The notes under the pieces are model-generated. The model was given only the letters and a program-made list of their open reading frames with translations, made no database searches and was not told the DNA's origin. Shown here one piece after another: positions 8,319-22,851 of a DNA stretch of 49,949 nt; the first letter of the stretch is position 1; every line of letters begins with the position of its first letter. Source of the stretch: a bacterium (GTDB lineage: Bacteria > Auribacterota > Tritonobacteria > UBA1439); contig JAQUPF010000016.1 in NCBI GenBank assembly GCA_028716845.1, positions 1 through 49,949 on the forward strand, given 5' to 3'. The position numbers and the translations under genes were made by a program.

Positions 8319-9067
8319 TCGTACCACCCCCTCAGGTCGTACAGCCGTATCCGGAGGACGTCGAGGAACATCCGGTACGGGTCCGCGGCGACGCGCACGC
8401 GGCTGCTCGGCGAGTCGGACCAGGTCACCGGCACCTCGGCGACGCGGTAGCCGAGCCGGCGCGCGAGGTAGAGCGCCTCGACGTCGAAGCTGAACCGCTC
8501 GATCCGCTGCCGCCGGAAGAGGTCCTTCGCCGCCGCGGCCCTGAACAGCTTGAAGCCGCACTGGGTGTCGGAGAAGCCGCGAAGGGCGACGAGCCGCACG
8601 ATCCCGTTGAAGATCCTCCCCATGAGCTCCCGGTGCCAGGGCTGCCGGATGCGGATGTCGGCCCCCGGGACCGCCCGCGAGCCGATGGCGATGTCGAAGC
8701 CGCCGCGGAGGACCGGCTCGAGGAGCCGCTCGACGTCCTCGATCGGCGCGGAGAGGTCCGCGTCGGAGAAGAGGATGCAGTCACCGCGCGCCTCATCGAC
8801 GCCGTGCCGCACCGAGTAGCCCTTGCCGCGGTTGCCGGGGTTGGAGGCGAGGCGCACGCGCGGGTCGCGGCCGGCGAACGCGCGGCAGAGGGACGCGGTC
8901 CCGTCGGTCGAGCCGTCGTCGACGACGATCACCTCCCAGCCGTACGCCTGCCGGGAGAGGTAGGCGCAGACGCGCTCGAGCGTTTCGCCGAGCCGCTCCT
9001 CCTCGTTGTACGCCGGGATGACGACGGAGATGAACGGCGCCTGCCCGCCTTTGCCTTGTGCGGTCAT
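8315..9067 (-). CDS. GT2 polyprenyl-phosphate glycosyltransferase (DPM1/Alg5-like)
   Basis: This 250-residue GT-A fold glycosyltransferase has FISVVIPAYNEEERL at the N-terminus, VVDDGSTDG (~48-56) for nucleotide binding, the DxD motif in FSDADLS (Asp102/Asp104), and GSRAVPGADIR and DTQCGFKLFR, which are typical of dolichyl- or undecaprenyl-phosphate mannosyl/glucosyl transferases. It lacks C-terminal membrane helices, so it resembles soluble or peripheral family members. It would load a sugar from a nucleotide-sugar onto a polyprenyl phosphate at the inner membrane face, supplying the neighbouring GT-C enzymes. The start ATG overlaps the upstream gene's TGA (ATGA), and its own TGA overlaps the TTG start of the giant gene, so it is translationally coupled on both sides. 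The exact sugar cannot be read from the sequence. Confidence 0.92.
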   Translation of the reverse strand: MTAQGKGGQAPFISVVIPAYNEEERLGETLERVCAYLSRQAYGWEVIVVDDGSTDGTASLCRAFAGRDPRVRLASNPGNRGKGYSVRHGVDEARGDCILFSDADLSAPIEDVERLLEPVLRGGFDIAIGSRAVPGADIRIRQPWHRELMGRIFNGIVRLVALRGFSDTQCGFKLFRAAAAKDLFRRQRIERFSFDVEALYLARRLGYRVAEVPVTWSDSPSSRVRVAADPYRMFLDVLRIRLYDLRGWYD

Positions 9068-11238
9068 GCCCCCCCTCCCCGCCCCTCCCCGCCGACCGCG
9101 TAGATGCGGACGTCGCCGCCCGCGTACGCGGTCCGGTACTCGCGCGCGAACGCCGCGAGCCCCGCCGGCGAGTACTTCTTCTTCTCGAGCGCGCCGACGT
9201 AGACGTACCGGACGGCGTGCCTGTCGAGCAGGTGCGCCACGTCGCGCTTCCGCGGCGCGTCGTAGATCCGCTTGATCTCCTCCGTCCGCTCCATGATGAG
9301 CCGCCAGCTCCAGTCACGCCAGAGCGACTCCTGGTTCCCCCAGCCGAGGACGGTCGGCCGGCCCCCGAACGTCGCCACGCGGCCGAAGAAGCTGTACGGG
9401 TCGCCGGTCGCCTCGAGGACCACCGCCCCGGGGGAAACGTTCCGGCGCACCCACATGATCGCCGCATACTCGTCCGGATGCCGGTGCCTGATGTAGGCCA
9501 TCCCGTCGAGCGTCGGCAGGTACGGCGAGGGGGAACCCCGCCCTCCCCGGAACCGCCCGCAGCGGTGCCAGGTGCCGAGCACCGGGTAGATGAGGGAGGC
9601 CGCCACGAGCGCGGCGAGCGCCGAGACCCAGGCCGCCCTCCACGCCCCCCGGAGCGCCCCGGTCACGGCGGCGGTCCCGGCGGCGAAGACGACCGAGAGG
9701 AGGATCCATGCCGTGAAGTAGAACTTGAAGACGGTGTTCTGCCGCTGGAGCCGCTCCGAGTAGAAGTCCTTCAGGTAGAACAGCTCGCAGCCGAGAAAGA
9801 TTCCCGCGCAGAGGAGGACGAGGATCAGGGCGAACGTCCGCCGGGGCGGCGAGGAGCCGGGGGCGGCGAGGAGCGCCGCCGCGGCCGCGAGGGCCCCGAG
9901 CGAGACGCCGGCCACGGCGCTCCCCGTCGCCGCCCAGCCGGCGGCGACACCCGCCGCGGCGAGGAGGAGCGAGACGGCGGCCCGCCCGCGGCGGCGCGCC
10001 TCCGCCGCGAGGAAACTCGCGGCGACGAAGCAGCCGAGGCCGTTGACGGTGAGGAAAGCGGGGAGCCGGGAGCGGCGGGCGGCGTCCACGAGCCGGATGT
10101 CGATCCCCGCGGCCGGCTCGAAGCGGAGCCGGAACGGGAGGAGGACGGCCACGCACAGCGCGGCGGCGAGCGCGCCCCAACGGACCCACGCCCCCGGCGG
10201 CGATGCGCCCGCCCGGGCGGCGCAGACGGCGGCCGCGGCGAGGAGCGCGGCGTAGAGCGGCAGGTCCCACGTGTTGAACATGAAGACCGTCCCGAGCGCG
10301 AGGCCGGTGAAGAGGCCGAGCGGGAGGAGGCCGGCGGGGAGCCGCCGCGACGCGCCGCCCTCCCCGCCCGCCGAGAGGATCGCGAGCGCCGCCGCGAGGA
10401 GCAGGAAGGCGAACGGCATGAACATGTAGTGCGGGTGGAGATCGCCGAGGAGGAAGCTGAAGAGCGGGAACTCGTGGATCGTGCCCGGGATGATCTCGCG
10501 GGAACCGCGGGCGAACATCTCGACCCACCAGTCCCGTCCCCCGAGCCCTCCCCCGAGCGCCCGGGCGAAGGCGCCGAGGTTGCCCAGGCCGAGGAGGAAG
10601 AGCGGCGCGAGGAGGGCGGCGCCGTACCGCTCCGTCAGGTTGTACCCCATGCTGAAGGCGGCGAGGCCGGCGAGCGGCACGACGGTCGCAACCGCGAGGT
10701 TGAAACCGGTCTCCGGGGCCGCGCCCGCCAGGCGCACGAGGGCGGCGAAGACGACGTAGCCGAAGTAGTAGTAGTTGACGGGGCTGCCGGCGAACCAGAG
10801 GTCCTGCGGCGGCATCCGGCCGTCCGCGAGGACCGCGTGGAGGAACATCATGTCCGCCTCCTTCTCCGCGACGGTGATGTCGGGCTTGTACGCCTGGATC
10901 AGGAGGGCGGCGGCGAAGAGGGCGAGGAAGAACGCCTGCTCGAAGAGGAGGAGGCGCTTCCGGCGGGCGATGAAGTCGCGCATCCCGGCGGCATGGAGCC
11001 GCCAGATGACCGCGCCGGCGAGGGCGTACAGGACGAGGAAGGAGGCGATCGAGGGGGTGTCGAGGGGGAAGAGGCCGAGGCTCGAGGCGAGCCAGGCGGC
11101 GTACGAAACGACGAGAAGGCCCGCCAGGCGTGCGAGGCCGATGCCGCGGTCGGGCAGGCCGCGGAACAGGGCGAAGCAGAGCGGCCAGCTCGCAAGCCCC
11201 AGGATCTCGATCGCCACAAGCCAGCGAAGGATCGTCAT
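9064..11238 (-). CDS. DUF2298 (Chlor_Arch_YYY) multi-pass membrane protein
   Basis: This 724-residue integral membrane protein is a stand-alone DUF2298 member. Diagnostic stretches are ADMMFLHAVL (~129), DLWFAGSPVNYYYFG (146-160), FPLFSFLLGDLHPHYMF (~265), FNTWDLPLYA and NTVFKFYFTAWILLS. A C-terminal soluble part contains IRHRHPDEYAAIMWVRRN and VRYVYVGALEKKKYSP. It is the first gene of the glycosylation operon, starting with ATG at 11238 and ending in an ATGA overlap with the GT2 gene. The family has a GT-C-like topology, and its members are often next to or fused with GT-C enzymes, as here. The biochemical activity is unknown and I do not assign one. Confidence 0.88.
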   Translation of the reverse strand: MTILRWLVAIEILGLASWPLCFALFRGLPDRGIGLARLAGLLVVSYAAWLASSLGLFPLDTPSIASFLVLYALAGAVIWRLHAAGMRDFIARRKRLLLFEQAFFLALFAAALLIQAYKPDITVAEKEADMMFLHAVLADGRMPPQDLWFAGSPVNYYYFGYVVFAALVRLAGAAPETGFNLAVATVVPLAGLAAFSMGYNLTERYGAALLAPLFLLGLGNLGAFARALGGGLGGRDWWVEMFARGSREIIPGTIHEFPLFSFLLGDLHPHYMFMPFAFLLLAAALAILSAGGEGGASRRLPAGLLPLGLFTGLALGTVFMFNTWDLPLYAALLAAAAVCAARAGASPPGAWVRWGALAAALCVAVLLPFRLRFEPAAGIDIRLVDAARRSRLPAFLTVNGLGCFVAASFLAAEARRRGRAAVSLLLAAAGVAAGWAATGSAVAGVSLGALAAAAALLAAPGSSPPRRTFALILVLLCAGIFLGCELFYLKDFYSERLQRQNTVFKFYFTAWILLSVVFAAGTAAVTGALRGAWRAAWVSALAALVAASLIYPVLGTWHRCGRFRGGRGSPSPYLPTLDGMAYIRHRHPDEYAAIMWVRRNVSPGAVVLEATGDPYSFFGRVATFGGRPTVLGWGNQESLWRDWSWRLIMERTEEIKRIYDAPRKRDVAHLLDRHAVRYVYVGALEKKKYSPAGLAAFAREYRTAYAGGDVRIYAVGGEGRGGGA

Positions 11239-11454: not shown

Positions 11455-12990
11455 CTACTGGATATAGCCGAGCGCCTTGAGGAAATCGGTCGTCTTCGCA
11501 TCGAGCGTGATCGTCTCCCCCGAAACATCACGCAGCATTCTCGCCTTCTGCTCGTCGATCTTGTTGTGGTGACGCAGGAGCGAGCGGAGATCGGAGACGA
11601 TGTCGGGCTTTTCCGAGGAGAGATCGACCTTCTCCCCTGGATCCTCAAGCAGATCATGGAGCCGGACAATCTCGACGACTTCCTCTTCATCCTCCGACCT
11701 GTCCAGCCGAAGCATGCGGGCGATCGAACGGAGAATTCCACGGCGCCTCCTCTCGATGCCGAAATAGGCATGATTCTCCTCAAAGGGACGGAGGATCACC
11801 AGCTTGTAGCGCTCGGTTCGCATAAAATCCTGGGCCCACGGATCGCCTCCGTATTCGTAGGATCGTATCTGCCGCCCCTTCCCGCGGATGAGGGAGCGCA
11901 TACTCCTGCCTTCGAACGACGGGGGCACGGGGAGTTCCAGCATGTCGAGCACGGTGGGTGCGAGATCAATGAGGGACACAAGGGCGTCCACACGGCGGCC
12001 GCGGGGCACGCCGTAGCCCCGCATGATGAGCGGCACCCGGGCAACCGTTTCGAACGGCTTGTTGTGCTCGAAATACCAGTCATGTTCCCCGAGGGACTCC
12101 CCGTGGTCGGTGGAGATGATCATGATCGTTCGACGGCGCATATCGGTTGCATCCAGATGCCGGGTTATCCTCCGGATCTGATCATTGACGAATCGTATCT
12201 CCCCGTCATATTGCGACACGTAGTGGTCCACATCGTGCGGCCGGCGCATGTGCCGTGCCGTATTTTCATATATGAATCCGAATAAGAACGGGGTGGGGCT
12301 TATCGGCGCCCATGCGCCGGTTCTGTAGAGACCGTCGTCCTCGAACATATCGTCATAGGGGGGCGGGGGTGTATAGGGGTAATGCGGATTCACATAGTGG
12401 ATCCAGGCGAATACCCTCTTCCCCATGTTCTTGTCAAGCCACGCGATGAGGTCGTCGGTGGCGGCGGCATCCCCCAGATGGTGGAGCTCGGGACTGTGAC
12501 CGTGGCCGGCGGAATAGGAGTTGTCGAAGTACCGGAAGCCTCGGTCGAGGCCCTGGCCCTCCGCGCCCACCCACTGATGATTGACGAACGCCGCGGTCTC
12601 GAAACCCCCGCCCTGCACGAGTTCCGCAAGCAGGGGCAACCGGGGGGGGAGTTTTTTGTCGACCAGCATCACCTTGTGGACTCGCGGATGGGTCGAGGTC
12701 ATCAGGGAGGGCAAAGAGGGCATGGTCCACAAACCGGGGGTGACGGCGTTTTCGAAGAGAACCCCCTCCGAAGCGAGACGGTCGATGTCGGGGCTGGTGG
12801 CGCGCAGATACCCGTAGCAGCCGAGGTGATCCGCGCGCATGGAATCCGCCGTGATCAGGATCACGTTGGGCCTGAACGTGCGCCAGTCCCGGATCCGGGC
12901 ATGCGCGATCAGGAGGGCGGCCATGCAGGCGGCGGCAATCGCGTAGAGGCGGACGGCGCGGCGCAGTCTTCCTCGGAGAAGTCTCATCAT
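11455..12990 (-). CDS. Sulfatase-fold (alkaline phosphatase superfamily) membrane-anchored hydrolase/transferase
   Basis: This 511-residue protein has an N-terminal membrane anchor (~12-30) followed by a sulfatase-fold domain. The metal ligand Asp lies in NVILITADSMRADHLGCYGY (Asp49), and the second metal site is TDHGESLGEHDWYFEHN. At the nucleophile position, where true sulfatases have the Cys/Ser-X-Pro-X-Arg formylglycine motif, this protein has Thr89 in LWTMPSLPS and no Arg. Thr at this position is known from phosphoglycerol and phosphoethanolamine transferases, so a phospho-transfer or phosphodiesterase activity on envelope glycans is more likely than sulfate ester hydrolysis. The gene lies between the GT-C cluster and the polysaccharide cluster and is transcribed divergently from the next radical SAM gene. 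The start is ATG at 12990, with an alternative ATG at 12987. Confidence 0.85.
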   Translation of the reverse strand: MMRLLRGRLRRAVRLYAIAAACMAALLIAHARIRDWRTFRPNVILITADSMRADHLGCYGYLRATSPDIDRLASEGVLFENAVTPGLWTMPSLPSLMTSTHPRVHKVMLVDKKLPPRLPLLAELVQGGGFETAAFVNHQWVGAEGQGLDRGFRYFDNSYSAGHGHSPELHHLGDAAATDDLIAWLDKNMGKRVFAWIHYVNPHYPYTPPPPYDDMFEDDGLYRTGAWAPISPTPFLFGFIYENTARHMRRPHDVDHYVSQYDGEIRFVNDQIRRITRHLDATDMRRRTIMIISTDHGESLGEHDWYFEHNKPFETVARVPLIMRGYGVPRGRRVDALVSLIDLAPTVLDMLELPVPPSFEGRSMRSLIRGKGRQIRSYEYGGDPWAQDFMRTERYKLVILRPFEENHAYFGIERRRRGILRSIARMLRLDRSEDEEEVVEIVRLHDLLEDPGEKVDLSSEKPDIVSDLRSLLRHHNKIDEQKARMLRDVSGETITLDAKTTDFLKALGYIQ

Positions 12991-13174
12991 GGCATTACCC
13001 GCGGCGGGCGGGCCGCTGCTGGCATTCCCTTGAACGGGCGCGGATGATCGCGGCGCGATTGATTGCTTTTCGCACCTTCATGTTACAACATCCCTCCGTC
13101 CGTCACAAGCCGATAATCCGCCCCTCCGCAATCCGCCTATACAACGCCGCGCCGTTGGTGCATAATCCTTGGCC

Positions 13175-14605
13175 ATGAAGGTGTTCCTCGGCAATCCCCC
13201 CTGGCGCAAGCCGGGCTTCTATGGCGTGCGGGCGGGCTCCCGCTGGCCCCACTTCGAGCACGAGTCGAGCCGCTACATGCCGTTCCCGTTCGGCCTCGCC
13301 TACGCGGCGGCGGTCCTCGAGCGCGACGGCTTCGAGGTGGCGCTCGTCGACGGCGTCGCCGAACGCATCGGCGACGAGGAGTACCTCGCCCGCCTGCGCG
13401 ATTTCTCACCCGACCTCGTCATCCACGAAATCTCCACGATCTCCATCGCGCAGGACATGCGCGTCATCGACCTGGTCCGGAGGGCCATGGGCGGGCGGCC
13501 CCGCGTCGCCGTCTGCGGCCTCCACGTCCACGCCTTCTCCCCGGCGTTCCTCGATGAGCACCGGCAGATCGACTTCTCGCTTATCGGCGAGTACGAGATG
13601 ACCGCCCTCGAGCTCGCCCGCTGCCTCGCCGCCGGCGGCGATCCGTCCCCGATCGCGGGCCTCGTCTTCCGCGGCGCCGACGGCGCCGCCCGCGCGAACC
13701 CGCGCCGGCCGCTCCTCCGCGACCTCGACTCCCTCCCGTGGCCCGCGCGCCGCCACCTGCCGATGACGAACTACTGCGACACCCCGGGCGGGATCCCCGA
13801 GCCGAGCGTCCAGATGTGGGCGAGCCGCGGCTGCCCGTTCCGCTGCACCTTCTGCGCCTGGCCGCAGATCGTCTACGGGAGCCACGACTACCGGGCGCGC
13901 GACCCGGTGAAGGTCGCCGAGGAGATGGAGCAGCTCGTGAAAGAGGCGGGCTTCCGATCGGTCTATTTCGACGACGATACCTTCAACATCGGAAAGCCCC
14001 GCATCCTCGCCCTCTGCGCGGAGATCAGGCGGCGCGGCATCGCCGTCCCCTGGGCGATCATGGCGCGGGCCGACCTGATGGACGAGGAGATGCTCCGGGC
14101 GCTCAAGGGGGCCGGCCTCCACGCCCTCAAGTACGGCGTCGAGTCGGTCGACCAGGAGATCCTCGACCGGTGCGGCAAGCAGATGGACATCCGGAGGACC
14201 GAGGCGATGATCCGGGCGACGCGCCGCCTCGGCATCCTCTACCACCTCACCTTCACCTTCGGCCTCCCCGGCGAGACGCGGGAGTCGATCCGGCGGAGCG
14301 TGGACTGGTGCCTCCGGATGGACCCCGACACCGTCCAGTTCTCCCTCACCACCCCGTTCCCCGGCAGCCGCTTCTACGAGGAGATGGCGCGCGAGGGGCG
14401 GATCGTCTGCAGGGACTGGGAGAAGTACGACGGCTACTTCCACTGCGTGGTGAACACCGAGCGGCTGAGCGCCCGCGAACTCGAGGAGGAGCGGAACGCC
14501 GCCGTCCGCAGGTGGAATGCGCATGCCGCCGGCAGGCGGGAGGGGCGGCGCGGGCCGCTCGCCTGGGTCCTCCGCGCCCTCAAGAAGGCGACGGCACGCT
14601 CCTAG
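13175..14605 (+). CDS. B12-binding-domain radical SAM protein
   Basis: This 476-residue protein has an N-terminal cobalamin-binding Rossmann-like domain (KVFLGNPPW to ~150, with GLAYAAAVLERDGFEVALVD) and a radical SAM TIM-barrel. The [4Fe-4S] cysteine motif is CPFRCTFC within MWASRGCPFRCTFCAWPQ (~218-232). GVESVDQEILDRCGKQ and FTFGLPGETRESIRRSVDWC are typical of the BchE/MiaB-like B12-radical SAM group. The ATG at 13175 is preferred over TTG at 13169 because homologous proteins start at this beta strand. A CATAAT box sits only 9 bp upstream of the ATG, too close for a normal leader. Substrate is unknown; methylation or rearrangement of a lipid or glycan is plausible in this neighbourhood. The gene is convergent with the next gene, with a 30-bp gap. 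Confidence 0.9.
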   Translation: MKVFLGNPPWRKPGFYGVRAGSRWPHFEHESSRYMPFPFGLAYAAAVLERDGFEVALVDGVAERIGDEEYLARLRDFSPDLVIHEISTISIAQDMRVIDLVRRAMGGRPRVAVCGLHVHAFSPAFLDEHRQIDFSLIGEYEMTALELARCLAAGGDPSPIAGLVFRGADGAARANPRRPLLRDLDSLPWPARRHLPMTNYCDTPGGIPEPSVQMWASRGCPFRCTFCAWPQIVYGSHDYRARDPVKVAEEMEQLVKEAGFRSVYFDDDTFNIGKPRILALCAEIRRRGIAVPWAIMARADLMDEEMLRALKGAGLHALKYGVESVDQEILDRCGKQMDIRRTEAMIRATRRLGILYHLTFTFGLPGETRESIRRSVDWCLRMDPDTVQFSLTTPFPGSRFYEEMAREGRIVCRDWEKYDGYFHCVVNTERLSARELEEERNAAVRRWNAHAAGRREGRRGPLAWVLRALKKATARS

Positions 14606-14635: not shown

Positions 14636-15487
14636 CTATCTCCTCCTGGCGCAGGCGATGACATTCTTATGCGGCACCCCGCTGCGCCGGTATTCCCGCA
14701 CAAAATGATCCGACCAGATGAAGCCCGCCCGGTCAAGGATCGCCTGCAGCGTGGCCTCCGTGAAGAAGTGGAAATGATCCCTGTCCCCGAAATCATGCAG
14801 GAGCGGGGTCTCGATGATAATCAGGCCGCCCGGCCCGGCCATTCTCCGCAACATTCGCAGCACGCGCAACGGATCGGCGAGGTGCTCTATCACATGCGAC
14901 ATGACGATCAGATGGAACGTCTTGCAGGGAAACCAAAAATCCTCAATCATGCCCTGCAGAATGCGTAATCCGCGCGCGCGTCCCTCGCGCACCATATCCG
15001 CACCGATCTCAACCCCCACGACCTCCCACCCCCGCCGGGCGAGCAGTTCAATCTGCCTCCCCTCGGCGCACCCGACCTCCAGCGCACGCCTCCCGGGACC
15101 GGCAACCGCCTCGAAGCCGGGGAGGAACCGATCGAAAATTTCGTTCCTGTCGTTCTCCCATGCGTCATCCCATGTCCGCCCGTCGGCGCACCCGAAGAAC
15201 GCCCTGCGCTGCTCGATATACCCCTCCACGTACCTGTCGTGCAGCCGCCGGCGGGTCGGTATGTCCTTGGCAAACACCATCGCGCAAACGTCGCAGCGTG
15301 CATAGGTGTAATGGTAGCTCCTCCCATGATCCCTGATTCGATAGCTGCCGCAGACGGGGCACGACAGCCCGAGGAACTGCCGTTTGATCAGGCGGTAATC
15401 CTCCAGCAGGAGGGCGCCCCACGCCGGGCGGCGGCGGGCGCATGGAACCTCGTCGGGACGGCGCACCGGATCAATCTCAGCACACAT
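14636..15487 (-). CDS. SAM-dependent methyltransferase with N-terminal zinc ribbon
   Basis: In this 283-residue protein, residues ~40-70 carry a CxxC...CxxC zinc-ribbon-like pair (CPVCGS and CDVCAMVF). The class I methyltransferase core follows: motif I ALEVGCAEGRQ, VVGVEIGADMV, LIVMSHVIEHLADP and PGGLIIIETP. Proteins of this type are common in surface-polysaccharide clusters, where they methylate a terminal sugar or act on an exported glycan. It is the last gene of the minus-strand polysaccharide operon, 48 bp after the GT4 gene. GC content falls somewhat from here to about 16700, as often seen in envelope loci that exchange horizontally. Confidence 0.88.
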   Translation of the reverse strand: MCAEIDPVRRPDEVPCARRRPAWGALLLEDYRLIKRQFLGLSCPVCGSYRIRDHGRSYHYTYARCDVCAMVFAKDIPTRRRLHDRYVEGYIEQRRAFFGCADGRTWDDAWENDRNEIFDRFLPGFEAVAGPGRRALEVGCAEGRQIELLARRGWEVVGVEIGADMVREGRARGLRILQGMIEDFWFPCKTFHLIVMSHVIEHLADPLRVLRMLRRMAGPGGLIIIETPLLHDFGDRDHFHFFTEATLQAILDRAGFIWSDHFVREYRRSGVPHKNVIACARRR

Positions 15488-15535: not shown

Positions 15536-16675
15536 TCATCCGCGCACCCTCCGTTCCGCGACGTATGTGATGACCTTCACCAGTTCGTCACCCATCGCGC
15601 GGTGACAGTACCTTTCCGCGACCTTCTCGCGCGCCTGCGCCCCCATTCGCTCTCTGAGCGCCGGGTCCTCCACAAGCAGCCGCAGTCCAGAGATGAATTC
15701 ATCACGCCCTGATGCCAGGAAACCCTCCACACCGTCGTTGATGATGGCACGGACCTCGCCGAATCTGCTTGCAACGGTGGGGATTCCCATCGCCATATAT
15801 TCGAAGAGCTTGGTCGGACTCTTGCACTTCATCCATTCGGCATTCTCCCGGTCCGGAATGAGCGGGAGGAGGCCGATGTGCACGCGCTCGAGGGATTCTG
15901 GCATGCGGTCCGGCTCTATCCATCCCGGGAACTCCACCCCCCCGATCCCCTCGCTGCCCGCGTACTCCCGCACCCTCCCCATCCATGCCCCGTCCCCGGC
16001 GATGATGAAGCGCAGCGTAGGATGGAGCCGCCGCACCATCGAGTAGCAGTCGAGGGCGAAGCACAGGTTCTCATACAGCACCTTCCCCCAGACCTTCCCG
16101 TTCCACATGATCGTCAGGGGAGAGTCCGGCGGCCGGCGCTTTCTCTTGAATCGGTCCGCGTCGACCCCCGTGGAAATGAGGAACGAGGAGGCGTTGTACG
16201 AACGCATCAGGGCGAGGAGAGGCGAGGTGGAGGCCACGCAGGCGTCCGCCCGCCGTGCGACCGCGGCGGTGATCGGCTCCATCCCCGTCGCGCCGAAGAG
16301 CGCCCTGTTGAGGAAATCCCTCCCGAAAAACGGCGAGCGGTCGAGATCCCAGTCATCGTAGTCCAGGATGAACCGATTGATGCCGAGCCGCTTGAGGAGG
16401 AAGGGTGCCGCGGCATGCCAGTGCGCCTTCTGCGTGTAGAGGATCGCATCCCGCATCGGGAAGAGCCGCGCGAGGGCCCTTCCGGTCTGGATGCATTTCT
16501 CCCGGTCGCCGAGGCGAAGCATCCCGTCATCCTTCACCCACGGTGAGAAGTTCTCCTGGAAGGTGAGCACCTCGGCGTCGAAGCCCCGCCCCCGGAGAAT
16601 GGCGGCGAAGTTGTAACAACGGACCCTGGAATAGGCCATCTGCCTGCCGTGGATGGAGATGAAGACAACCTTCAT
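15536..16675 (-). CDS. GT4-family glycosyltransferase
   Basis: This 379-residue GT-B fold enzyme has an N-terminal half starting MKVVFISIHGRQMAYSRVR and a C-terminal nucleotide-sugar domain. The latter contains LTIMWNGKVWGK, FIIAGDGAWMGR, VEFPGWIEPDRMPE and the GT4-type SPTKLFEYMAMGIPTVAS, whose Glu contacts the donor. The start ATG at 16675 is chosen because the upstream in-frame sequence merely overlaps the previous gene's end. Role: cytoplasmic addition of a sugar to the growing surface polysaccharide. It sits 13 bp after the SPASM radical SAM gene and 48 bp before the methyltransferase, clearly in one operon. Donor and acceptor are unknown. Confidence 0.9.
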   Translation of the reverse strand: MKVVFISIHGRQMAYSRVRCYNFAAILRGRGFDAEVLTFQENFSPWVKDDGMLRLGDREKCIQTGRALARLFPMRDAILYTQKAHWHAAAPFLLKRLGINRFILDYDDWDLDRSPFFGRDFLNRALFGATGMEPITAAVARRADACVASTSPLLALMRSYNASSFLISTGVDADRFKRKRRPPDSPLTIMWNGKVWGKVLYENLCFALDCYSMVRRLHPTLRFIIAGDGAWMGRVREYAGSEGIGGVEFPGWIEPDRMPESLERVHIGLLPLIPDRENAEWMKCKSPTKLFEYMAMGIPTVASRFGEVRAIINDGVEGFLASGRDEFISGLRLLVEDPALRERMGAQAREKVAERYCHRAMGDELVKVITYVAERRVRG

Positions 16676-16688
16676 GCTGACTCTATGA

Positions 16689-17891
16689 TCAGCCGGCACG
16701 CCTCCCCGGCCCTCTCCGCGCCGCCGGGTCATTCAGATACCCGGCATAGCGCCTATGGATGGACGTATTGAGGCACCAGTTGTCGCAGATCCTCGCGCAG
16801 GCGATCCTCGCAAAATAGCGGTCGGATTTCGGCAGCCGCAGGGCCCGCTCCCTGAACCCGTCGTAGCGCCGTGAAAACCATATCCGGCTGAAACGCTCCT
16901 CAAAGATATTGCCGAGCGGATTCCTGTCCGCCTTGCAGCACGGCACCACGTTCCCGTTCGCGAGGACCCTGCAGGCCGCCCACCCGATGTAGCAGGGGAT
17001 CGTGTCGATGACGTCCGAGTGGTAGATCCCCTCGGCGGCACGGCTGTTCCGCAGCTTGGAGAGGACATCGTCGAAGATCACGATGTTCCCCTGGTGCTCC
17101 CCGAGCACGGGGGCATGCTCCTTCCGTGTCTCCTCCATGGTTCGGACGACCGCCTGTATCTGCTCCCCCGTGAGCAGGAGCCCCCGCAAGTTCGCCGATT
17201 CGACATCCGTGGTCTGCCACCAGATGTTGTTGACGCCGATCTCCGCCGCCAGCCGGACCGCGTTCCCGATGTCCTCATAATTGAGGGCGGATATGACGTA
17301 GGCAATGATGAGCTCGGGCTCCGCAGGGGCATGCCGGGCGCCCGCGAACAGCCGCATCAGATCCACTACCTTGGCGAAGGTCTCCTCCGTCGCCCCGGGA
17401 TGTGTCGCCGCGTACACCGCGGGAGACCCGGCCCAGAGGTTGACGCAGAGCTGGCTCAGCATCCCCCCGGCGATGCGACGCACCATCTCACCGGTCGCCG
17501 CCGTCAGATTCGTCATGAGAAGAACCTCGAGCCCCCTCGCCGAGGTGTGCTCCAGGATGCGGACGATATCCCTGTGGAGGAGCGGGTCACCGCCCCCGCT
17601 GTAGATGATCTTCCGGACCCCCATCGAGGCGGCCTCGTCGATGAGGGCGCGGACCCGTTCGAAGGGCAGTTCGTGGGCGCCGTCCCAGTGCGGGAGGACC
17701 TCGTCGGGGCGGAGGAGCGGCGAGCGGTGCCAGCAGGAGATGCACCGCAGCGTGCACCTGTTCGTAAGGTCGATGTAAAGCTCCTCGGGGCCGCAAAACG
17801 CCCGCGAGCCGTGGCGGATACCGCGGAGGATTGGATCCGTCCCGCGGGGCGCCGCCAGCAGCCTCCGCAACATGCCGCGCACTTTTCCCAT
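16689..17891 (-). CDS. Radical SAM/SPASM domain protein
   Basis: In this 400-residue protein, residues ~40-260 hold the radical SAM core with the cluster motif CTLRCISC in DLTNRCTLRCISCWHRSP, and IIYSGGGDPLLH as the GGE-like strand. A C-terminal SPASM-type region has cysteines in CYIGWAACRVLANGNVVPCC and CARICDNWC, likely binding auxiliary Fe-S clusters. SPASM proteins modify peptides or, in polysaccharide loci, sugar-related substrates; the substrate is not evident. The start ATG at 17891 is 41 bp after the stop of the ABC ATPase gene; the in-frame sequence upstream overlaps that gene in another frame and is not coding. It is followed 13 bp later by the GT4 gene. Confidence 0.88.
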   Translation of the reverse strand: MGKVRGMLRRLLAAPRGTDPILRGIRHGSRAFCGPEELYIDLTNRCTLRCISCWHRSPLLRPDEVLPHWDGAHELPFERVRALIDEAASMGVRKIIYSGGGDPLLHRDIVRILEHTSARGLEVLLMTNLTAATGEMVRRIAGGMLSQLCVNLWAGSPAVYAATHPGATEETFAKVVDLMRLFAGARHAPAEPELIIAYVISALNYEDIGNAVRLAAEIGVNNIWWQTTDVESANLRGLLLTGEQIQAVVRTMEETRKEHAPVLGEHQGNIVIFDDVLSKLRNSRAAEGIYHSDVIDTIPCYIGWAACRVLANGNVVPCCKADRNPLGNIFEERFSRIWFSRRYDGFRERALRLPKSDRYFARIACARICDNWCLNTSIHRRYAGYLNDPAARRGPGRRAG

Positions 17892-17932: not shown

Positions 17933-20254
17933 TCAGAGCCACTCGTCCGGCGAGAACGAGAGGACGGTGAGGCTGTGCTTGGGGAAGAGCACCCGCAGAC
18001 ATCCCGTGCCGGTGTCCGTGCTCTCCGCGACCGTCCTCGTCGACTCGATGCAGCGCACGTTCCAGGGATCGTGGGGCTGATTGCTCGCGTCGAAGAACGG
18101 GCCGGTGAGGACCTTGCTGACGACCTGGACCGGCGCGTAGTTCTTGAGGAGCACCTCCGCGCCGATCTCCTGGAAAAGGTGCCTGTTGACGACGAAGACC
18201 GAGAGCTTCGTCCCCTCCTCGTTCCTCGCCGCGATCACGTCGAGATACGGCACGCCCTCCATCGCGGGGATGACGCCGACGGGGCTGGTGGAGAAGGTAT
18301 CGGCGCGCACCGCCGTCTCGACCAGGCACTTCCCCGCGAGCATACAGTACAGCCGCTGCACGTACGCCTGCGGGTGGAGCAGCGGTTCCTGCCCCCCCGT
18401 CTCCCAGAGCGAGGAGTAGAGGGTGTGCATGATGGAGTAGCGGTGCGCGTGCGTGACGCGCGGCTCCCTGATGAAGAGGTTGAGGAGCATCGCCTCATAG
18501 AGGGCGGCGCCGAGGGTCTTGTTCTGCCGCCAGTTCTCGTCGGTGTCGCGCCTCCCCTTCACCTGGCGGGTGCGGTGGAGGAAGCCGGGCACGAAATCGA
18601 ACAGCACGCCGTACTGGCTCGCGGCGATCCGGACGCGCTCCGGGCAGTGCGCGGCGAGATGCGACTTCACGATCTCCATGTTGTTCGCGACGTAGATTGG
18701 CGCCGCCATCAGGGCGGCATAGGTCTCGTCCCAGTCCGGCGTGCGGTCGTCCGGCGTCACGTTGAGCACGGGGGCGGCGCTGTTGTGCACCGCGAGGAAG
18801 TCGATGCGATCCCCGAGCGCCCCCAGGACCACCGCGTTCCAGTCGGGGCGACGGTACCGCGTGAAGACGCCGCTGTCGCAGCAGCCGATGGCCCCCACGC
18901 GCGCCTCCGGATCGGCCGCCCTGACCCGCTCGATGAACGTCGCCGCCTTCTCCGCGTACTGTTCCGGCGAGAAGGGGAACTCGACGCCGAGCGGATGGAA
19001 GTCGTCGTAGTACAACTCGTGCCCGAGTTCCCACTGCAGGCCGCGCAGGCCCCGCTCCGCGTAGTGCCGCACCCACGCCTCGGCCTCCTCCGCCGTGCCC
19101 GTTCCGACGTTCAGGGAGATGAACGGCTCGGCGCCGGCGGCGGCGCACATGGAGAGGAACTCGTCGGGGCCGAAGTAGGGGTACGCGTCCGGGTTGCCGG
19201 GATAGCCGCAGCGCTGGGGCCTGCGCGCATCCCCGACGGCCTCGTGCCAGTGGAAGAAATCCGTCTGCACGCTGCCGGGATACCGCAGGGACCTGATCGA
19301 ATACGGGAGGAGGTGGCGCAGGACATCCGGCAGGACGCGGCGGTTCTTCCTGTCCCAGAAATAGAATCCCTCGTTGAGCCAGTCGAGATTCGATCCGAAC
19401 AGGCCGGCGGGCACGCGCCGCACGACGCGGTCCGCGTCGACCTCTATCCGCGCGAGGCCCACCTTCTCCGTCTCGAGCCGCCGGCCGGCGGCGCCGGTCT
19501 TCAGCGGCATGTGCTGGAACTTCTCCTTGTACCGCTCCCGATATTTCGAGAGGACGACGTCCGTCGTGTCGAACTCCTCGATGCGGCCGTGCTCGAACCA
19601 GAGGACCCTGCTGCAGAGCGCCTCGATTCGCTCGAGGGCGTGGGAGACGAAGACGATGGTCTTCTTCTCGTCCTCGTAGAACGTCTTCATCGTGTTGTAG
19701 CATTTCGTCTGGAATTCCATGTCGCCGACCGCGAGGATCTCGTCGATGAGGAGCACGTCGAACGGGACGGTGATGGCGATGGCGAAGCCGAGCCGCATGT
19801 TCATCCCGGACGAGTACGTCGCGATCTTGGCGTTGATGAATTTCCCCAGCCCCGCGTACTCGACGATCTCCCCGTAGATCCTGTCGATGTGCGCCTTCGG
19901 GAGGCCGAGGATGGATCCGTTGAGGTAGATGTTCTCCTGCCCCGTGAGATCGAACTGGAAACCGGCGCCGAGCGAGAGGAGCGAGGAGATCCTCCCGTTG
20001 ACCCGGACGGACCCCATGGTGGGCGCCGTGACGCCCGCCAGCACGCTCAGGAGCGTACTCTTCCCGGAGCCGTTCGGCCCGATCACGCCGATGCACTCCC
20101 CCTCCTCCAGCTCGAACTCGACCTCCCGCATCGCCCAGAATTCCTGCGGCCGCCCCTGCGAGATGAGGAACGGCATGATGTTCCGCACGAGCGCCGGCTT
20201 CTCGAAGTAGACGCGGTATTGCTTGCTGACGTTCTGGACCGAGACGGTTTTCAT
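17933..20254 (-). CDS. Wzt-type polysaccharide ABC exporter ATPase fused to a GH51-like domain
   Basis: This is a 773-residue protein. Residues 1-~245 are a Wzt/TagH-type ABC ATPase: Walker A GPNGSGKST (59-67), the Wzt-style signature YSSGM (147-151), Walker B VLLIDEILAVGD (167-178) and the H-loop VSHAL (~His205). From ~280 onward, instead of the usual Wzt beta-sandwich, there is a GH51/clan-A arabinofuranosidase-like region: LRYPGSVQTDFFHW (~323), FGPDEFLSMCAAAGAEPFIS (~361), LQWELGHE (acid/base position Glu413), then a C-terminal beta-rich part. The expected nucleophile Glu (EW/EY motif) appears as Gln547 in IAASQYGV, and the Asn before the acid/base is His. A catalytically weak or dead, glycan-recognising module is therefore likely. 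The gene starts 3 bp after the permease stop. Confidence 0.87.
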   Translation of the reverse strand: MKTVSVQNVSKQYRVYFEKPALVRNIMPFLISQGRPQEFWAMREVEFELEEGECIGVIGPNGSGKSTLLSVLAGVTAPTMGSVRVNGRISSLLSLGAGFQFDLTGQENIYLNGSILGLPKAHIDRIYGEIVEYAGLGKFINAKIATYSSGMNMRLGFAIAITVPFDVLLIDEILAVGDMEFQTKCYNTMKTFYEDEKKTIVFVSHALERIEALCSRVLWFEHGRIEEFDTTDVVLSKYRERYKEKFQHMPLKTGAAGRRLETEKVGLARIEVDADRVVRRVPAGLFGSNLDWLNEGFYFWDRKNRRVLPDVLRHLLPYSIRSLRYPGSVQTDFFHWHEAVGDARRPQRCGYPGNPDAYPYFGPDEFLSMCAAAGAEPFISLNVGTGTAEEAEAWVRHYAERGLRGLQWELGHELYYDDFHPLGVEFPFSPEQYAEKAATFIERVRAADPEARVGAIGCCDSGVFTRYRRPDWNAVVLGALGDRIDFLAVHNSAAPVLNVTPDDRTPDWDETYAALMAAPIYVANNMEIVKSHLAAHCPERVRIAASQYGVLFDFVPGFLHRTRQVKGRRDTDENWRQNKTLGAALYEAMLLNLFIREPRVTHAHRYSIMHTLYSSLWETGGQEPLLHPQAYVQRLYCMLAGKCLVETAVRADTFSTSPVGVIPAMEGVPYLDVIAARNEEGTKLSVFVVNRHLFQEIGAEVLLKNYAPVQVVSKVLTGPFFDASNQPHDPWNVRCIESTRTVAESTDTGTGCLRVLFPKHSLTVLSFSPDEWL

Positions 20255-20257
20255 GCC

Positions 20258-21082
20258 CTAAATGAGATCGATGAGCTCGTGCTCCTTCCTCGCAAACAGG
20301 CTGTAGGAGATGTAGAGGACCACGACGCTGAACGCCGTCGTCTGTGCCACCAGGAGTGACGTCGGGTAGAAGGCCTTCGTCGTCGCGTCGTTGAGGAGCA
20401 CGATCCGGTACATGGCGAAGAGATCGTAGACGGGATTGAGCATGAACAGCCTGGTCATCCATCCGACCCCCGCCTTCGCGACGTCATCGATTCCGTAGAA
20501 CACCCCCGAAAGGTAGAAGGTCAGCATGAGGACGATCTCGACGACGTAGCGCACGTCGCGGAAATACACCTGGAGGTGCGAGGTGAGGAGGGCGAGCCCG
20601 ACCGCGAACAGGAAGGTGATGAGGACGATCCCGGGGAGCAGGAACACGGTGAGCGGGAAGAGGGGATACTGCCCCTTCGCCATGTTGTAGAAGAGGACGA
20701 ACAGGACGATGACGATGAGCGAGAGGATGAAGTTGATCAGGTTGGAGAGGACGAGGGAGATCGGCACGATCTCGCGGGGAAAATACACCTTCTTCAGGAT
20801 GCCGGCGTTGTCGATGATCGAGCAGGTCGCCCCCATCACGCTCATGTTGATGAACTGCCAGACGAAGAGCGCGGTCACGATCGAGAGCGGCGGCGTCGGC
20901 CTCCTGAACAGGAACGAGAAGATGAACCAGAAGACGAGCGCCATGCAGAGCGGCACGAAGAACGCCCAGAGGAAGCCGAGAAAGGCGTACTTGTACTGGA
21001 TCTTGAGGTTCTTGAGCGCGAGATGGATGAGGAGCTCCCTGTACACGGTGAGGAGCGCCGCGATCCTCCGGATAATCTTCAC
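20258..21082 (-). CDS. Wzm-type polysaccharide ABC exporter permease
   Basis: This 274-residue ABC-2 type permease has six predicted membrane helices. The N-terminal LALKNLKIQYKYAFLGFLWA is typical of Wzm/TagG/KpsM proteins, and further family stretches are NAGILKKVYFPREIVP and VYFRDVRYVVEIVLMLTFYLSGVFY. With the adjacent Wzt-type ATPase it would export a lipid-linked glycan across the inner membrane. Its GTG start at 21082 overlaps the TGA of the upstream radical SAM gene (GTGA), indicating translational coupling. An ATG at 21086 lies in another frame and is not used. The stop is separated by 3 bp from the ATPase start. Confidence 0.93.
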   Translation of the reverse strand: MKIIRRIAALLTVYRELLIHLALKNLKIQYKYAFLGFLWAFFVPLCMALVFWFIFSFLFRRPTPPLSIVTALFVWQFINMSVMGATCSIIDNAGILKKVYFPREIVPISLVLSNLINFILSLIVIVLFVLFYNMAKGQYPLFPLTVFLLPGIVLITFLFAVGLALLTSHLQVYFRDVRYVVEIVLMLTFYLSGVFYGIDDVAKAGVGWMTRLFMLNPVYDLFAMYRIVLLNDATTKAFYPTSLLVAQTTAFSVVVLYISYSLFARKEHELIDLI

Positions 21083-22851
21083 GCATCCCCCCCCTTGGCG
21101 CCCGATCCGCCCCCCGGACGGCGCCGCGCGCGCGCCCCGCGCAGAAACGACAGGATGGATGCCGCCCGCGACGGACGGGGGTCGGGCTGCATCATTATAG
21201 GGATTTCATCCGGTTTTGCAACTTCCATGATGGGGGGCGCGCCGCGATCCGCGTCCGCCGCGGAGACGATGAGCCCCACCTGCCCGAGGACGAGGCAGGC
21301 CAGGGCGCCGAAGCGGATCGCATCCTTCCGGCTCAGCCCCTGTCGCCGCATGGCCCGCGCGCAGATGTCCATCACGGTCCTCCTCCCGTCGCAGGACCGC
21401 CAGAAGAGATCGAGGAAATCACGCAGGCGCGTGAGGACCTCCCGCTGTCGCGCGACGGGGACCGAGCGGTTGAAATCGCCCCAGAGGACGACCTGCGCCG
21501 CGAAGTTGCAGAGACGGTAGTGGTACTCCCCCATCTCCGCGGCGTTTCGCGCCGGCACGTCGCCGAGGAGGGATCGCGGCACGAAGTTGATCTCGTGGTG
21601 GTGATACTGCTCCCATCCCTCGGCGAGCACCTCCCCGAGGGAGGGGGCCTGCGCGTGGAGCTCCGTCCCGGGGTGGGCGGTGGAGAACTGGCCGACGTAG
21701 AGGGGGAACGGGAACATGTGGAAGTGCTCGTACCAGGGAAGGCCCGCGATCAGGTCGTCGATGAAGCGCGCCTGGCGGTAGTAGCCGGTGATCGTCTCCC
21801 CCGGGTTGAACGCCATAAAGGTGAAGAGGGGGCTCATGCCGTGCGCCTTGTGGAGCCGGGCCACCTCCCGGATGAGGCGGAGGTCCTCGTCCTTGTGGAT
21901 CGCGGCGAAGGTGTCCGGGTTCGCGCTCTCGATGCCGACCTCGAGGCCGATGCAGCCCGCCTCCCGCAGGAGGCCCATCAGGTCGCCGTTCCGGGCGACG
22001 TGCGAGGCGCGCGTGAGCCCCGTCCACCGGATGCGGAGCCGCTCCTCCACGATGAGGCGGCAGAGCCGCTCGATGTGCCGCCGGTCGAGCATGAGGTTGT
22101 CGTCCCAGAAATGGAACTGGTCGATCCCGAGCGCGGCGATCGAGGCCTTGATCTCGCCGAGGATGTTCTCTGGGCTCCGCCACCGGACGCGGCGCTTCCA
22201 CATGAGCGGCGATCCGCAGTAGGTGCAGCCGTACGGGCACCCCCGCGAGCCGATGATCGGGAGCCGCCGCCCGCCCACGACGTGGAGCGGCGAGTCGTAC
22301 CGCTCCATGTCGAACAGGTCCCAGGCCGGGAACGGAACGGCGTCGAGGTCCTCGATGAAGTCCCGCGGCGGCATGCGTCGCACCTCCCCCCCCTCGCGCA
22401 GGGCGAGGCCGGGGATCTCCTCCGGGCGCGGCGACCCCCCGAGGCGGTGGCGGAGGATGTCGCAGAGCGTCTCCTCCCCCTCGTTGAGGACGCAGAGATC
22501 GGCCGTCTCGAGCGCCTCCGCGGGGAAGATCGTCGGGTGGACGCCGCCGTGGACGATCATCGCGCGGGGGACCGCCCGCCTGATCCCGGCCGATATGGCG
22601 CGCGCGGCGGGCGCCTGGCAGGTCCAGTAGCCGATCCCGACCACGGTCCGCTCGCCCGCGAGCCGCGCGGCGGCCTCCACGACCGCCGCGACCGGCAGAT
22701 TGTGCGCCTGCCCGTCGATGACGCGGATGGAGAGGCCGGGGAGGCGCTCCCGCGCGCGGGCGGCGAGGTAGGCGAGGCCGAGCGGGAAGACCTTCTTGTG
22801 GCGCTCGTTGGCGGGGAGCGGCGGCTGGACGAGGACGAGATCGGCGCTCAT
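21079..22851 (-). CDS. B12-binding-domain radical SAM protein
   Basis: This 590-residue protein has an N-terminal B12-binding-like domain (ADLVLVQPPLPANERHKK, FPLGLAYLAARARE, IVHGGVHPTIFPAEAL). The radical SAM domain has the cluster motif CPYGCTYC in IGSRGCPYGCTYCGSPLMW (~200-215), HFWDDNLMLD and EVGIESANPDTFAAIHK. A C-terminal helical region follows, with a final disordered Arg/Gly-rich tail. The architecture is close to that of the radical SAM protein at 13175-14605. It sits directly upstream of, and overlaps, the ABC permease gene (GTGA), and 55 bp downstream of the DUF6485 gene, which ties it to envelope glycan synthesis. The reaction is not identifiable from sequence. Confidence 0.9.
   Translation of the reverse strand: MSADLVLVQPPLPANERHKKVFPLGLAYLAARARERLPGLSIRVIDGQAHNLPVAAVVEAAARLAGERTVVGIGYWTCQAPAARAISAGIRRAVPRAMIVHGGVHPTIFPAEALETADLCVLNEGEETLCDILRHRLGGSPRPEEIPGLALREGGEVRRMPPRDFIEDLDAVPFPAWDLFDMERYDSPLHVVGGRRLPIIGSRGCPYGCTYCGSPLMWKRRVRWRSPENILGEIKASIAALGIDQFHFWDDNLMLDRRHIERLCRLIVEERLRIRWTGLTRASHVARNGDLMGLLREAGCIGLEVGIESANPDTFAAIHKDEDLRLIREVARLHKAHGMSPLFTFMAFNPGETITGYYRQARFIDDLIAGLPWYEHFHMFPFPLYVGQFSTAHPGTELHAQAPSLGEVLAEGWEQYHHHEINFVPRSLLGDVPARNAAEMGEYHYRLCNFAAQVVLWGDFNRSVPVARQREVLTRLRDFLDLFWRSCDGRRTVMDICARAMRRQGLSRKDAIRFGALACLVLGQVGLIVSAADADRGAPPIMEVAKPDEIPIMMQPDPRPSRAASILSFLRGARARRRPGGGSGAKGGDA

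Follow-up and report, generated by a model that had tools for sequence, protein, structure and literature searches.

To our knowledge, the choice of glycan by ABC exporters has been described for a single kind of tail, the Wzt jelly-roll, which reads a methyl, phosphate or Kdo cap. In Aquifex aeolicus, the O-antigen cap is bound between the Wzt tail and the hinge helix of the nucleotide-binding domain (NBD), Tyr233 of this helix contacts the polysaccharide, and ATP binding moves the tail, upon which the chain is released (PMC9445017). Tails of this type act as a checkpoint that completed chains have to pass (PMC11231755). The gene described here encodes a protein that resembles the CBM-dependent Wzm/Wzt O-antigen exporters of E. 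coli O9a, Raoultella terrigena and A. aeolicus in its NBD family, in having an adjacent Wzm and in carrying a C-terminal domain after the hinge helix, and the position of the sugar-contacting hinge tyrosine is kept (PMC9445017). It differs from them in the tail itself, which in the CBM-dependent exporters is a jelly-roll of ~130–150 residues and here is a GH51 unit of 500 residues with no match to PF14524 (Wzt_C) at E values up to 1 in the Pfam scan. The tail shares with the GH51 α-L-arabinofuranosidases (3s2c, 3ug3/3ug4 and 1pz3) its fold over residues 264–770, the acid/base Glu and the equivalents of Arg324 and His490, but it is joined to an ABC ATPase, has Gln at the nucleophile position and His in place of the Asn before the acid/base residue, and several of its subsite residues are replaced. 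Catalytically dead glycosidase barrels also occur in membrane transporters in the SLC3 ancillary proteins (4F2hc and rBAT), inactive GH13-like barrels on amino-acid transporters, although these belong to another GH family and another kind of transporter, lie on the external side, and act in trafficking rather than in substrate choice.

The window analyzed is the whole 49,949-nucleotide stretch that forms positions 1 to 49,949 of contig JAQUPF010000016.1 (assembly GCA_028716845.1). The wzt-GH51 fusion gene is a single ORF of 773 codons on its minus strand, with no internal stop, a start ATG at 20254 and a stop codon at 17933–17935 (Table 1). Three bases separate the wzm stop from this ATG, as read in the sequence at the junction. 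Third-codon-position GC is 0.93–1.0 alike in the NBD, the linker, the barrel and the C-terminal sandwich, so the frame is coding throughout. The initial annotation, which had recorded a fusion at this position with a frame continuous through the junction, was correct on both points, and the strand, which it had not given, is minus. Pfam matches cover both halves of the protein, with PF00005 (ABC_tran) at residues 43–173 (4.8e-18) and PF06964 (Alpha-L-AF_C) at residues 575–761 (9.6e-07, above the gathering score).

Table 1. Features of the fusion gene and its neighbors, in window coordinates
Feature	Position	Strand	Evidence
Wzt-GH51 fusion gene, 773 aa	17933..20254	-	uniform codon periodicity; full-length in five other genomes
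Wzt/TagH-type ABC nucleotide-binding domain, residues 1–246, including hinge helix 231–246 with Y238	19517..20254	-	PF00005; TarH/Wzt matches
Linker, 20 residues, 247–266	19457..19516	-	low pLDDT; unaligned and variable among fusions; coding periodicity kept
GH51-type (β/α)8 barrel, ~residues 267–640	18335..19456	-	phmmer, model strands, structural Z, Foldseek
GH51 C-terminal β-sandwich, ~residues 641–773	17936..18334	-	PF06964 match overlapping barrel end; all-β in model
H412-E413 (GH51 Asn and acid/base Glu positions)	19016..19021	-	both invariant in six fusions
Q547, codon CAG (GH51 nucleophile Glu position)	18614..18616	-	Q/D/E/E/E/F across six fusions
Wzm (ABC-2 permease)	20258..21082	-	PF01061 1.9e-13; adjacent ortholog in all relatives
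B12-binding radical SAM enzyme	21079..22851	-	PF02310 and PF04055; 51–66% identical orthologs adjoin wzm in relatives
Radical SAM/SPASM enzyme, start approximate	16689..17891	-	PF04055 and PF13186; ortholog in 5/5 relatives' loci
GT4-type glycosyltransferase	15536..16732	-	PF13692/PF00534; ortholog in 5/5 relatives' loci and homologous loci of other phyla
Class I SAM methyltransferase, downstream	14636..15487	-	PF13489

The most similar NBDs among solved structures are those of the TagH/TarH wall teichoic acid exporters (6jbh and 7dd0), which match residues 1–246 at 1.3e-58 and 7.3e-58, followed by A. aeolicus Wzt at 1.8e-55. The fusion nonetheless differs from TagH/TarH in its C-terminal part and its PVC-group host, and it scores 217.7 of 538 bits and 197 of 320 bits against the NCBIfam TagH models, which places it below the TagH equivalog level. 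The Walker A, signature, Walker B and H-loop residues are invariant in all six fusions known to us (see below), as is Y238, which aligns with residue 233 of A. aeolicus Wzt. From these matches the N-terminal half is a Wzt-type polysaccharide-export ATPase, as had been annotated, encoded beside an ABC-2 permease, with the export of a glycan itself being predicted.

The C-terminal half was compared with solved proteins by sequence and by model. The GH51 part alone (from residue 252) matches solved GH51 arabinofuranosidases at 3.8e-26 (phmmer). AlphaFold2, run on an alignment of four sequences from which the viral GH51s (two loci) were left out, gave a model of the separate domain with a pLDDT of 73.4 and a pTM of 0.83, in which a (β/α)8 barrel with eight barrel strands is followed by a β-sandwich; the full-length model is of modest confidence (pLDDT 60.2, pTM 0.57) and carries no information on the placement of the barrel relative to the transporter. 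In structure comparison GH51 arabinofuranosidases rank first (Z 28–30, rmsd 3.0–3.9 over 421–443 aligned residues), and a Foldseek search with the domain model returned 3s2c at 2.9e-31. By both routes the C-terminal half is a complete GH51 glycosidase unit, with a TIM barrel and a C-terminal β-sandwich modeled over residues 267–770, so that the domain first described as GH51-like is a GH51-type TIM barrel proper.

The minus-strand genes run in the order B12-binding radical SAM enzyme, wzm, wzt-GH51, radical SAM/SPASM enzyme, GT4 glycosyltransferase, methyltransferase. Orthologs of the first five lie beside the fusion in four related genomes (G001, G002, G003 and G005), and in a fifth (G006) the B12-radical SAM ortholog sits on another contig. 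No ortholog of the downstream methyltransferase was found in the relatives' loci. Three genomes from outside the phylum (G085, G230 and G362) have a homologous export locus with the same gene set, at identities of 45–51% for the B12-radical SAM enzyme (the frame of which is cut in G362), 41–43% for Wzm, 46–48% for the Wzt NBD and 43–45% for the glycosyltransferase, yet their Wzt ends in a tail of ~230 residues that shows no sequence relationship to GH51; Pfam and the PDB gave no match for the G085 tail. The nine other Wzts scanned all carry a PF14524 tail, one of them being encoded in the window's own genome, which has one further Wzt of this type (two ordinary ATPases, L002 and L003, on contigs C2 and C1). 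With these two beside the fusion, the organism appears to have several glycan exporters with different readers. Since different tails stand at the same place in homologous loci, the stretch after the hinge helix is an exchangeable slot in this exporter family, occupied by Wzt_C, by the unnamed ~230-residue tail or, here, by GH51.

In related exporters the place of the GH51 domain is taken by Wzt_C or another tail, which makes substrate recognition the best reading of the domain's function. We propose, with a probability of about 0.57, that the GH51 unit is a recruited glycan-recognition domain of a Wzm/Wzt exporter, the pocket of which would read the chain and gate its export. The gene product would then be the ATPase subunit of an exporter for a lipid-linked glycan, with a complete GH51 unit facing the cytoplasm in the recognition slot normally taken by a small β-sandwich. 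The pocket at the end of the barrel is predicted to bind the terminal sugar or a terminal motif of the finished chain beside the hinge helix (Y238), and the unit would pass the chain on to the Wzm channel and let go of it when ATP binds, by analogy only with A. aeolicus WzmWzt. The bound glycan should stay uncut in the window organism, where the nucleophile is Gln. We infer that the exported glycan is bound in the pocket, that it is not hydrolyzed there and that its binding gates export. The initial annotation had suggested either recognition or length sensing; the slot position favors the former, and no evidence was found for the latter.

The catalytic positions were examined in a MAFFT alignment of the six fusions with 15 free-standing GH51 proteins, which is unambiguous around the motifs. 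Glu occupies the nucleophile column in all 15 free-standing GH51s, whereas the fusions have Gln (Q547 in the window), Asp (P0005), Phe (P0008) or Glu (P0006, P0007 and P0009). The acid/base Glu (E413) is present in every fusion and in all free-standing proteins aligned, and the residue preceding it is Asn in 15/15 free-standing proteins versus His in 6/6 fusions. In the models Q547 lies at the end of barrel strand 7 and E413 at the end of strand 4. The motifs named in the initial annotation are thus where it put them (R324 in LRYPGS, FGPDEF at 361–366, H412-E413 and Q547), and its reading of a Glu-to-Gln change at the nucleophile and of His-Glu for Asn-Glu is borne out by both alignment and models; Glu stands at only one of the two catalytic positions in the window.

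Both catalytic Glu residues are kept in three of the six fusions, so catalysis may be ancestral and, in those three, a present function. An exporter-tethered enzyme, active as a glycosidase or transglycosidase, which would trim, edit or uncap the lipid-linked chain before export as a form of proof-reading, would account for these members and for the invariance of E413. The His-Glu pair is no obstacle to it, as other clan-A families allow catalysis with this pair (GH26 enzymes use it) and the pair alone need not abolish activity. The difficulty lies with the nucleophile, the loss of which would demand an unusual mechanism. Gln, Asp and Phe each occur at a tip of their own in the tree and all free-standing relatives have Glu, so the simplest history is one of three independent losses, and neither Phe nor Gln is able to act as a nucleophile. 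In a GH51 enzyme the nucleophile mutation E296A (Glu to Ala) lowered activity ~1600-fold (PMC4939007), which implies that the Gln form should bind without useful turnover. Repeated independent loss also suggests that catalysis is not needed, and we regard the tethered enzyme as an unlikely explanation. Q547 is read from one assembly, and all six fusion sequences apparently come from metagenome assemblies, but with Asp and Phe in other fusions a chance base error is an unlikely explanation of the nucleophile pattern. The domain is thus presumed from its sequence to be catalytically dead in the window organism and possibly still active in relatives; the earlier label of inactivated suits the window organism (Gln) and at least one relative (Phe) and does not extend to the family, half of which keeps both Glu residues.

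The GH51 pocket residues R324, W336, N382, E413 and H490 are invariant in the fusions. The substrate of clan-A enzymes sits where the barrel strands have their C-terminal ends; 12 of the 32 positions there are invariant, versus 4 of the 32 at the N-terminal ends (random windows, p = 0.006), in a post hoc test that was built after the pattern had been seen and uses six sequences only. The enrichment indicates a constraint on the rim of the pocket that does not extend to the nucleophile; in our reading, the pocket was kept for binding once cutting was no longer needed, though the Glu-Glu members may still be enzymes. Other residues stand in every fusion in place of the Asn that follows RYPGG, the Tyr at two residues beyond His490 and the Trp that follows the nucleophile; with these arabinofuranosidase subsite residues gone, the ligand is not readable from the sequence. 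The barrel might instead be a scaffold that reads no glycan and serves in dimerization of the two Wzt subunits or in docking of the neighboring glycosyltransferase or radical SAM enzymes. Oligomers are common among GH51 enzymes, the enzyme gene neighborhood is conserved, many of the 71 residues of the domain that are invariant among the six fusions lie outside the strand ends, and there may be conserved surface patches outside the pocket. Against a scaffold stand the excess of invariants at the pocket end and the retention of the five pocket residues, and we find this explanation, too, improbable.

The full-length fusion is present in six of the seven genomes of the class (the Tritonobacteria lineage of Ca. 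Auribacterota, PVC group, a small class with uncultured members), namely the window's and G001, G002, G003, G005 and G006, and is common to one family and its sister family. In the seventh (G004) the contig ends inside the orthologous wzm, so the assembly just lacks the gene that follows. The other five fusions all have PF00005 and PF06964 matches, the latter just under the gathering score in P0009, and the fused GH51 domains form one clade (support 100/100). The loss of the nucleophile and the faster evolution of the GH51 half (~38% identity between genera versus 62–70% for the ATPase half) could be taken to mean that the fused glycosidase is decaying baggage without function in the window organism, but each of the six genomes has the domain at full length and in an intact frame, at 37–41% identity to that of the window in the other five and with its 71 invariant residues, which makes decay a very improbable account. 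An assembly or frame artefact joining two genes can be dismissed, even though the assembly that contains the window is fragmented (36 contigs), as the same join recurs in five other genome assemblies and codon periodicity is even across it.

The initial annotation had called for a search for further ABC-GH51 fusions. Five were found in addition to that of the window, all in the same class; an A2 profile search of 384 genomes across Bacteria returned these six as its only full-length strong matches. An ABC or NBD domain was absent from the ~60 GH51 reading frames fetched outside the class (from the rest of the phylum and the 384 genomes), and a GH51 tail was not found among the long Wzt frames (up to 820 aa) retrieved from beyond the class, which instead contain coiled coils, parts resembling Wzt_C, repeats of the unnamed tail, or read-through from upstream. 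A second, catalytic GH51 was not found in the window's genome, where the fusion is the single GH51 match. The phylogeny places the free-standing source of the fused domain only weakly, the nearest rows being L021/L048 (support 86/71). These two (L048:667–2760, from G020 of the same phylum, and L021) are divergent GH51-type proteins with E-Y/E-F in place of E-W at the nucleophile and an intact Asn-Glu.

The fusion adds a variant to the CBM-type Wzt exporters, one with a GH51 unit as its tail. No description of a Wzt-glycosidase fusion was found in the literature searched; specialist surveys of Wzt tails may mention one. If glycan recognition is indeed its role, the GH51 barrel would be a second, structurally unrelated glycan reader, with a deep pocket and an ancestry that points to the kind of sugar held. 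The fusion also shows the Wzt tail to be an exchangeable slot. We consider the odds about even that the substrate-recognition domain of this ABC polysaccharide exporter arose by conversion of an entire glycosidase, that the enzyme pocket became the reader of the glycan terminus, its nucleophile being discarded several times independently, and that this is a general route from enzyme to export checkpoint. Orthologs with and without both catalytic Glu residues would allow a direct test of such a conversion within one transporter.

Other Wzt tails were seen in the course of this comparison. The un-annotated ~230-residue tail (GLSGYTSMRSFVKWYDS...) of L126:9994–11421 (G085), L141:4733–6160 (G230) and L142:2935–4347 (G362) is possibly another unrecognized glycan-reading domain. 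Two further Wzt-like ATPases (L133:1804–3888 and L135:1074–2966) have tails of 380–470 residues that resemble, by eye, two copies of this ~230-residue domain. In G261 (L130:2505–4964) the Wzt tail runs past a Wzt_C-like part for ~400 more residues, in which a nucleotidyltransferase-like motif, GSLSTLDYTPYSDLD, was noted by eye.

Several other genes of the window were noted as well. A sulfatase-family protein (11455–12990, minus strand; PF00884, 4.1e-46) is encoded near the glycan locus and was not found in the relatives' loci. A minus-strand ORF at 13406–14524 was rejected as a gene, since third-position GC and homology put the true gene on the plus strand (13169–14605). The latter encodes a second B12-binding radical SAM enzyme with HpnJ/BchE-like scores below cut-off and a 51% identical homolog in the G085 export locus. 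A large protein encoded at 9064–11238 on the minus strand matches the TIGR03662 chlor_Arch_YYY domain (1.6e-145, above cut-off).
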